NCBI GenBank assembly: GCA_902554325.1
Contig: CACDOH010000007.1
Location: 1-58,988 of the forward strand
DNA length: 58,988 nt
Direction of reading: 5' to 3'
From: an uncultured Pelagibacteraceae bacterium
Lineage (GTDB): Bacteria; Pseudomonadota; Alphaproteobacteria; Pelagibacterales; AG-422-B15
Of this stretch, positions 31,839-33,831 are shown one piece after another. A model generated the notes under the pieces. That model searched no databases and had not been told where the DNA came from. It worked only from the letters and a program-made list of their open reading frames with translations. A program made the translations under genes and the position numbers. Every line of letters starts with the position of its first letter. Position 1 is the stretch's first letter.

Positions 31839-33152
31839 TTAAGCTGCGTCTAATGCATTTTTCAGATCTTCGATGATATCATCGATGTGCTCTATGCCTA
31901 TTGATAATCTAACATAACTTGGGTTAACACCAGCAGCTTCCATATCTTCGTCAGAGAGTTGTGAGTGTGTAGTTGATGCTGGATGAATCGCAAGACTTCT
32001 TGCATCACCTATATTTGCAACATGGTAAAACATATTTAAATTATTAATAAACTTCTCACCACTAGCTTTACCACCTTTAAGTTCGATTCCACAAAGTGCA
32101 CCATGACCACCTTTGAGATATTTATTTGCTCTATCTCCAGCTTCACCTTCGTCAAGCCCAGCATAAATAACTCTAGATACCTTATTATGACTTGAGAGGT
32201 ATTCAGCAACTTTAGCTGCATTAGAACAGTGTTTTTCCATTCTCAGTGAAACTGTTTCTAGACCTTGTATAATATTGAATGCACTTTGAGGACTCAAAGC
32301 TGCACCTATATCTCTTAATCCAACAAATCTTGCTCTAACTATATAGGCAATTGGACCAACAGCTTTTGCAAATTCTGTCCAAACCATGCCATGATAACTT
32401 GGGTCAGGATCATTTAAGGCAGGTTGTCTTTTAGGGTCCTTACCCCAATCAAACTTACCACTATCAACAATAATTCCCCCAATAGTCGTTCCATGTCCAC
32501 CAATAAATTTAGTTAATGAATGAACAACAATGGAAGCCCCGTGTTCTATTGGCTTACATATTACTGGCGCTGCAGTGTTATCAACGATCAATGGAATATT
32601 ATATTCGTCTCCTATATCTGCAACTTCACGAATCGGAAATACTTTTAACTTGGGATTTGGAAGGGTCTCAGCATAGTATGCCCTCGTATTATCATCAGTT
32701 AATTTCCTAAAACTCTCTGGATCTTTTGGATCAGCAAACCTAACTTCAATTCCGAGATCCTTCATTGTATTAGCGAATAAATTCCAAGTACCTCCGTATA
32801 AATCAGTAGAACTAACAATATTATCACCAGCTTTCACTAAGTTTTGGATACTAAGCATAGAAGCAGATTGTCCTGAACTCACACAGAGAGCGCCCACGCC
32901 ACCTTCCATTGCAGCAACTCTTTTTTCAAGAACATCAACAGTTGGGTTCATAATTCTTGTGTAAATGTTCCCAAAGTCTTTTGCTCCAAATAAGTTAGCA
33001 GCATGTTCAGTATTATGAAATTGATACGAAGTTGTTTGATATATAGGCACCGCTACAGATGTTGTTGATGGATCACTTCTATAGTCTCCGCCATGTAAAG
33101 CTATTGTCTCAGGATTAACTGAGTCCGCAGGTACAAATTTATTTTTAGCCAT
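31839..33152 (-). CDS. metY: O-acetylhomoserine sulfhydrylase / aminocarboxypropyltransferase
   Basis: A PLP enzyme that makes homocysteine (or methionine with methanethiol) from O-acetylhomoserine. The Cys/Met-metabolism fold shows PIYQTTSYQF, GNIYTRIMNPTVDVLEKRVA, the PLP lysine in VVHSLTKFIGGHGTTIGG and a C-terminal SLAIHPASTTHSQL. The length of 437 residues favours MetY over the shorter MetZ or MetB. Its product pathway links to hom, also in this window. The leader is unusually long for this genome and contains a hairpin. Confidence 0.94.
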   Translation of the reverse strand: MAKNKFVPADSVNPETIALHGGDYRSDPSTTSVAVPIYQTTSYQFHNTEHAANLFGAKDFGNIYTRIMNPTVDVLEKRVAAMEGGVGALCVSSGQSASMLSIQNLVKAGDNIVSSTDLYGGTWNLFANTMKDLGIEVRFADPKDPESFRKLTDDNTRAYYAETLPNPKLKVFPIREVADIGDEYNIPLIVDNTAAPVICKPIEHGASIVVHSLTKFIGGHGTTIGGIIVDSGKFDWGKDPKRQPALNDPDPSYHGMVWTEFAKAVGPIAYIVRARFVGLRDIGAALSPQSAFNIIQGLETVSLRMEKHCSNAAKVAEYLSSHNKVSRVIYAGLDEGEAGDRANKYLKGGHGALCGIELKGGKASGEKFINNLNMFYHVANIGDARSLAIHPASTTHSQLSDEDMEAAGVNPSYVRLSIGIEHIDDIIEDLKNALDAA

Positions 33153-33183
33153 TTCTTTATAATTCCCTTATTAATTTTTTTAA

Positions 33184-33228
33184 TCGATGATAATTGCTGT
33201 AAAAGTCTGCAAACTACAATTACATCGA
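33184..33228 (-). other. Structured leader hairpin upstream of metY, possible cis-regulatory RNA
   Basis: On the metY strand TCGATG-TAATTG (12 bases) pairs with CAATTA-T-CATCGA, leaving one bulged T and a 20-base loop that contains TTTGCAGAC. The stem is about 32 bases from the ATG; an AAGGG element lies between. SAM-II and SAM-V riboswitches are known before met genes in marine alphaproteobacteria and contain a TTGCA core. However, the GCTAAA-type 3' element expected for them is not visible here, so I do not assign a class. Confidence 0.4.
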
Positions 33229-33268
33229 CATAAAATTTAATACCCGTTTAAAGATTATGTAAACTTAT

Positions 33269-33297
33269 ATATAAAGTACTATAGTACCATTTGTTAA
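33269..33297 (-). promoter_or_regulatory. Candidate metY promoter with a 12-base palindrome in the spacer
   Basis: On the minus strand TTAACA (33297-33292) and TTATAT (33274-33269) are 17 bases apart. The spacer contains the perfect palindrome GTACTATAGTAC (33276-33287), a possible operator. A start near 33262 would give a leader of about 110 bases. Confidence 0.4.
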
Positions 33298-33301
33298 AAT
33301 A

Positions 33302-33358
33302 TTGATTCAATTAAGGAAATATATAATGATTGACAAATAAATGAGTTATTATTATTAA
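33302..33358 (+). promoter_or_regulatory. Promoter region of rplM-rpsI, one element predicted leaderless
   Basis: A consensus TTGACA at 33330-33335 is followed after 17 bases by TATTAA at 33353-33358. This would start transcription about 33364-33366, directly before the rplM ATG at 33367. A perfect TATAAT at 33322-33327 with TTGATT 14 bases upstream could be a second start. No Shine-Dalgarno precedes the ATG. Confidence 0.5.
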
Positions 33359-33366
33359 CTTCGCAC

Positions 33367-33831
33367 ATGACTACATCAAAAATATTAAAACAAACAAAGT
33401 CCCTAGCTAAGGAAGATCTTAATAAAAATTGGCTAATTGTTGACGCTGAAAATATTGTCTTAGGTAGATTGGCATCTGCAGTATCTAAAATCTTAAGAGG
33501 TAAACATAAGCCAAGTTATACACCTCATGCTGATTGTGGAGATAACGTAGTAATAGTTAATGCTGAAAAAGTTAAGTTAACAGGAAATAAGCTAGAAGAT
33601 AAGGTATATTATCGTCATACAGGCTATCCTGGAGGCATTAAATCTATTACAGCAAAAAAAGTTCTCGAAGGAAAGAACCCTGACAGACTAGTAAGACTTG
33701 CAGTTAAAAGAATGATACCCTCAGGTCCTTTAGGTCGTAAACAGTTATCAAATATGAAGGTGTATGTTGGGAGCAATCATCCGCATGAAGCTCAAAACCC
33801 CAAATCATTAAATATAAAAGAGTTAATATAG
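33367..33831 (+). CDS. rplM: 50S ribosomal protein uL13
   Basis: An early-assembly protein of the large subunit. Typical segments are [60 protein letters not shown] and [20 protein letters not shown]. The length of 154 residues is normal for alphaproteobacteria. It is followed 2 bases later by rpsI, the universal rplM-rpsI pair. Confidence 0.98.

Follow-up and report, generated by a model that had tools for sequence, protein, structure and literature searches.

The leader of metY in the window, by which we mean the whole 58,988-nucleotide stretch of DNA analyzed here from an uncultured SAR11-type Pelagibacteraceae bacterium (genome G000; 1.17 Mb in 37 contigs, 79% complete), raises the question of what a long hairpin in front of a methionine gene is for. 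The first-pass annotation had offered two answers, a diverged or new SAM-responsive riboswitch class or a protein-binding site. The gene is called metY here after that annotation and its family, and we take its divergent neighbor to be rplM. The features of this gene pair that bear on the hairpin are the following.

31839..33152, minus strand: open frame taken as metY, O-acetylhomoserine sulfhydrylase, 437 aa
33165..33169, minus strand: AAGGG, probable metY ribosome-binding site, outside the hairpin (from the sequence)
33184..33228, minus strand: stem-loop of 12 bp opening the metY leader, with 33217-33228 as one arm and 33184-33196 as the other (from fold and covariation)
33234..33263, minus strand: probable metY promoter, -35 TTTACA at 33263-33258 and -10-like TAAATT at 33239-33234 (from consensus scan and conservation)
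33330..33358, plus strand: probable rplM promoter, TTGACA-17-TATTAA (from the sequence and its conserved complement)
33367..33831, plus strand: open frame taken as rplM (ribosomal protein L13), divergent neighbor of metY

The gene setting of the hairpin is ordinary, and the metY-rplM synteny matches that of P. ubique HTCC1062 metY in the table of PMC2704228. The 12-base-pair hairpin annotated before metY proved to be real and to lie at the coordinates claimed for it. Its TCGATG/TAATTG arm (33184-33196, with one bulged base at 33190) stands opposite 33217-33228 in 12 pairs. The metY-strand leader folded at -19 kcal/mol (z -2.7) and none of 200 shuffles folded equally well, while the 47-nt hairpin alone gave -13.3 kcal/mol with a z-score of -3.75 (0 of 200 shuffles) that is biased upward because the segment was chosen for its folding.

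About 110 bases had been allotted to the leader between the best promoter and the ATG; the conserved promoter gives about 75 nt instead. TTTACW lies downstream of a palindrome described below in 38 of the 39 family intergenic regions that reach rplM, the exception being L034, where none was found. From this conserved position, and with TAAATT as the predicted -10, metY transcription should start near 33226-33229, which would make the hairpin the first element of the mRNA, right at its 5' terminus. Read from this likely start site, the metY-strand leader consists of GTCGATGTAATTG-TAGTTTGCAGACTTTTACAG-CAATTATCATCGAT, after which come an A-rich stretch, AAGGG and the ATG. TGTCAA, the complement of the rplM -35, was present in all 39 regions; the hairpin sits upstream of the rplM promoter and was rejected as an rplM element on that ground.

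Searching the site with covariance models for SAM riboswitches, as had been suggested, returned no relevant Rfam match. At gathering score the whole window gave tRNAs only, and positions 32900-33500 searched at E values up to 10 gave three irrelevant families and no SAM riboswitch. SAM-V (RF01826) had no match in G000 at E ≤ 0.01 and none in the window, so that SAM-V, like any other Rfam family, was rejected for this site. Nor did we find in the window an expression platform of the SAM-II kind, whether terminator or covered ribosome-binding site: no terminator-like site was seen at the metY leader, the metY-strand bases 3' of the stem are A-rich, and the stem leaves AAGGG uncovered.

We sought metY in 53 genomes of the family (f1), including 43 of the same genus, and obtained 41 leaders. 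An intact element precedes metY in 27 of them (L012-L031, L034, L035, L037 and L040-L043); it is decayed in the nine leaders of the window's clade, clade A (L001 and L004-L011), and absent from four (L032, L033, L036 and L038), and one leader (L039) is cut by a contig end. The intact leaders carry the motif CTTGCGGAC-N3..9-CAGCTAAG and read GTCGA(G)TTT..TRCAGCTTGCGGAC-N5-CAGCTAAGC; a few of them deviate at single bases. They correspond to a compact SAM-II-type aptamer with a 3-bp P1 (GUC/GAC), the core UUGC and CAGCUAA, which is followed by a GC-rich hairpin and a T run, giving GCGG-T(n) intrinsic terminators, and which occupies the same position in the leader as the window element. All three P1 pairs form in 17 of 17 compact sequences, and U-A has changed to C-G in five of these 17. 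Compared with the SAM-II element of metX, the compact form has the 3-bp P1 and a shorter linker to CAGCUAA, and all 27 intact leaders read GCUAAG where the metX type has GCUAAA. In view of the SAM-II contacts given in PMC11508383 (U10, U11, A20, U21, U22, U46, A47 and A49), the missing A may touch the SAM pocket. A short leader peptide, which some relatives could encode (ATG-CAG-CTT-GCG-GAC...TAA), was rejected because many leaders of clade B, which belongs to the same genus as the window, start with ATA.

Among 297 genomes of the order the compact pattern had 29 carriers, 27 in this family and two in genus g8, and in both g8 matches the next gene is again metY. Scanning of genome contigs yielded 31 stretches, all from Pelagibacteraceae, Pelagibacter or Pelagibacterales, and scanning of viral contigs yielded none. 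The standard model did not report it: f1 metY leaders from 12 sources gave no RF00521 match at E values up to 10, and metY of G052 scored 13.1 bits with RF00521, below the cut-off of 36. We also used R1, a SAM-II covariance model made from 14 long-P1 sequences located before metX, metF, metW and the metY of family f2, with all f1 metY leaders and all compact forms excluded from it. R1 was searched against 38 loci, namely 27 of the 41 f1 leaders (the others being near copies or cut) and 11 f2 loci. Compact elements scored 37.9-25.9 bits in g5/g8 and similar contigs, 29.7-19.8 bits in g6 and 26.1-20.5 bits in g3 of f1. A model trained without the compact form thus recognizes the compact metY element, weakly so in g4 (13.4 and 10.6 bits) and in clade B of g1 (15.5-10.4 bits, E 0.04-1.1), two groups whose scores would not by themselves decide the matter. 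At the window site R1 gave 2.8 bits (E 3 in 2.6 kb).

Comparison with these intact leaders delimits a further feature of the window, which overlaps the hairpin.

33196..33229, minus strand: decayed SAM-II-type aptamer, homologue of the relatives' GTCGAGTTTAATACAGCTTGCGGACTTATACAGC (from ungapped identity and R1 score)

Without gaps, this 34-mer is identical at 25 of 34 positions to L019 and to L012 and at 24 of 34 to L014, values that 0 of 5000 shuffles reached in each case. Its identity to L040, L034 and L035 of g3 and g4 is not significant (reached by 660, 642 and 4585 of 5000 shuffles); it is therefore clade B, within the same genus, that supports the homology. Judged from these alignments, the window element is homologous to the SAM-II-type aptamer kept by its relatives, and the SAM-II link suspected in the first-pass annotation was to this extent well founded, as was its remark that a GCTAAA-like 3' element is missing. 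With SAM-II (RF00521, SAM_alpha; also RF01726) the window shares descent, the position before metY, GUC/GAC and UUGC. It differs in that the GCUAA strand, the terminator and the conservation of the loop were lost and a long outer stem took over. In all nine clade A leaders GCUAA is replaced by GCAAUUA or variants and the terminator is absent. The window and its near copies carry GUC/GAC, the P1 next to GAUUU, along with UUGC, but in L006, L008, L009, L010 and L011 this P1 was not kept, and neither was the combination of UUGC and GAC. The window leader is predicted not to bind SAM; the GUC/GAC and UUGC still present there count against this.

On a 43-row metY tree, all nine decayed leaders group together as a single clade (support 100/99). 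The family must have lost SAM-II at least twice, once in g2 and once in the group made up of clade A, L032 and L146 (support 85/83). It is very probable, in our judgement, that the metY leader of the window is the relic of a SAM-II-type riboswitch that is now an ordinary 5' hairpin, and that metY is no longer switched by SAM there. In the ancestor, as in 27 of the 41 family leaders still, a compact SAM-II aptamer would begin at the transcription start and an intrinsic terminator would follow; once SAM was bound, the terminator could form and metY would be shut off. The window's clade lost both this terminator and the 3' strand that contacts SAM, and the 5' part of the old aptamer now pairs nearer the ATG, within a hairpin of 12 bp that compensatory changes maintain. 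This hairpin most likely acts as an ordinary 5'-terminal stem-loop, for instance by protecting the 5' end of the mRNA, while SAM control of the pathway would persist through an intact SAM-II before metX.

Compensatory changes in the stem 33184-33196/33217-33228, which the first-pass annotation had proposed to look for, were indeed found among close relatives, so that the absence of covariation it had named as a refutation was not observed. In the seven distinct clade A hairpins 95.2% of 84 cells are paired and three pairs changed on both sides; the covariation score was reached by 5 of 500 shuffles, the number of paired cells by 8 and the number of changes on both sides by 23. When the pairing was slid by 1-3 columns, 17-69% of pairs formed, as against 95%. 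Of the 16 pairs that differ from L001, 12 have kept their pairing and 4 are broken. The covariation is modest because it comes from seven distinct hairpins of closely related genomes only. The double compensatory changes at three pairs, the shuffled covariation scores and the slid pairings nevertheless argue against a functionless hairpin, that is, neutral debris pairing by chance in a leader that is an unstructured spacer. Such an account would suit the observation that the four family leaders without the element have no stable hairpin in its place either, so that metY manages without one, and that in three of the nine leaders of clade A (L004, L009 and L011) the fold does not surpass that of shuffled sequences. 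We regard it as possible but doubtful.

Mean pairwise differences among six clade A sequences were 0.32 in the loop, 0.18 in the stem, 0.11 in the tail, 0.05 in the promoter and 0.02 in the palindrome. The loop is thus the fastest-evolving part of the intergenic region, and the conserved unpaired pocket expected of a new aptamer class was not seen. That pairing is kept around the fastest-changing loop speaks for a plain hairpin at the 5' end and against any pocket for a ligand. A riboswitch, new or strongly diverged, that responds to SAM or another ligand and still regulates metY would fit the position at the 5' end before metY, the descent from a SAM-II-type aptamer, the covarying stem and the GUC/GAC and UUGC kept in the window. 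It is very unlikely, however, given a loop that differs by 32% within the clade (2-18% for the rest of the intergenic region), the five leaders in which UUGC and GAC were not both kept, a probable ribosome-binding site outside the stem with no terminator found, and the silence of both Rfam and R1. The window hairpin is not a new riboswitch class, and the idea of a diverged or new SAM-responsive one found no support, the SAM-contacting strand and the terminator being absent in all nine clade A leaders.

As a relic of SAM-II the hairpin most likely serves as passive protection of the mRNA 5' end, although the four leaders without a stable hairpin and the poorly folding L004, L009 and L011 count against this role too. 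Its likely origin is suggested by clade B, where in read-through mRNA the segment beyond the terminator can engage the 5' half of the aptamer (z about -3 for most rows; weak in L012, L030, L034, L035 and L037, z -1.1 to -0.4): the present stem may derive from a pairing of this kind, its loop having been shortened by the loss of the terminator. That the remnant was reused as a structure-only control element, for instance a hairpin stabilizing the 5' end or a switch that a protein reads, and also that the compact GCUAAG/3-bp-P1 metY form may represent a SAM-II subtype whose behavior toward its ligand has changed, we consider rather unlikely; if true, the reuse would show how a riboswitch becomes a simple regulatory stem.

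An intact SAM-II is present elsewhere in the same genome. RF00521 scored 38.8 bits, over its 36-bit cut-off, at G000:C6:27171-27247 (L097:1672-1748), and we take the frame after this match to be metX. The element carries its own T-run terminator, and its core, GATTTGA..CAGCTTGCG..CAGCTAAA, is the core of the metY element. R1 run on the whole of G000 (79% complete) had this as its sole match, at 72.2 bits. A metX SAM-II over the cut-off was found in lineages that have lost SAM-II at metY: G000, G004, G006, G020, G042 and G043. SAM-II-type matches were also observed in other SAR11 genera, at L105:1440-1515 and L106:724-794, before frames that look to us like metF and metW.

The other conspicuous feature of the region is the palindrome between the divergent metY and rplM promoters.

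33276..33287, no strand: palindrome GTACTATAGTAC, family consensus GGTAyTATArTACy, probable protein-binding site (from conservation)

The perfect 12-bp palindrome reported upstream of metY is present, but it does not lie in the promoter spacer as had been claimed: it lies 11 bp upstream of the conserved metY -35 and is a feature separate from the hairpin and outside the promoter core. As a bare 14-mer with up to two mismatches it is not rare (one found, 0.55 expected for the window's composition), and its significance comes from its conservation. It was conserved in all 39 family intergenic regions reaching rplM, whether SAM-II is present or not, with symmetry at 12-18 of 18 positions in 30 regions and at 10 of 18 in the other nine, and at 2% mean pairwise difference it is the most conserved block of clade A. 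It thus has the conserved dyad symmetry at a fixed place that marks a transcription-factor operator. From the palindrome to the rplM -35 there are 40-42 bp in 34 of the 39 regions and 31 bp in the five of g3, a difference of about 10 bp that would correspond to about one helical turn, whereas the spacing to the metY -35 ranges between 11 and 28 bp across 38 regions. Given the near-fixed distance on one side and the variable distance on the other, the palindrome looks like a putative protein-binding site that may serve rplM.

It is conceivable that a regulatory protein took over from the riboswitch and has its site at the hairpin or the palindrome (GGTAYTATARTACY), and the presence of the palindrome in all 39 regions, with so little change in clade A, would agree with this. 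Replacement is nonetheless improbable, since the palindrome occurs just as well where SAM-II is kept, its spacing is tied to rplM, and a search for PF01022 (ArsR-type, SahR-like regulators) found none in 11 genomes; SahR was rejected as the protein of the palindrome for the last reason. With the SahR/SamR-type operators of methionine genes in Proteobacteria the palindrome shares its place before a methionine gene; it differs from them in the missing PF01022 protein in those 11 genomes and in its position relative to rplM. Other matches of the exact symmetric 14-mer in the 11 genomes fell only inside coding frames, which we take to be groES (L110, L112 and L114) and dnaN (L111), so that no regulon is visible and this possibility was rejected. 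Of the protein-binding alternative in the first-pass annotation, then, what stands is its application to the palindrome, where it is plausible, and not to the hairpin. The hairpin we continue to read as a SAM-II relic.

The window can also be compared with Pelagibacter metY under SAM-V (RF01826): the gene, the rplM synteny and the order are the same, but the window has no SAM-V match and shows no pseudoknot over the ribosome-binding site. In the HTCC1062-type genome G058 we found four SAM-V matches at E ≤ 0.01, and G058 fits P. ubique HTCC1062 in that these fall in intergenic regions of the PMC2704228 table. As described in PMC2704228, and in agreement with PMC5069961, metY of HTCC1062 has SAM-V alone, and SAM-II is found at bhmT and metX. 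In G058 a compact SAM-II-like match (L089:1356-1403, 19.8 bits with R1) lies directly upstream of SAM-V at metY, and L086, L091 and L094, also of Pelagibacter-type metY, have such an element upstream of SAM-V as well (19.8-29.7 bits including L089). In the searched loci, none of these elements exceeded the threshold of Rfam. In one genome of the family, G049, there are two metY copies (C13 and C21) and a single over-threshold SAM-V elsewhere (C7:91669-91735). SAM_alpha is described in PMC4239095 as having metY as its core target in Rhizobiales and Rhodobacterales, and PMC6061858 and PMC9481103 treat the similarity and tandems of SAM-II and SAM-V. The portions of the literature that we searched, the founding SAM-V paper aside, make no mention of a compact SAM-II before HTCC1062 metY.

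The standard SAM-II model misses the compact 3-bp-P1 form across SAR11 metY, apparently including P. ubique upstream of SAM-V. These missed elements are of more general use than the hairpin itself and bear on studies that treat Pelagibacter metY as under SAM-V alone. SAR11 are the most abundant bacteria of the ocean. For the family of the window, the metY leaders catch the decay of a riboswitch midway, with intact, decayed and absent forms at one gene while metX keeps its switch.
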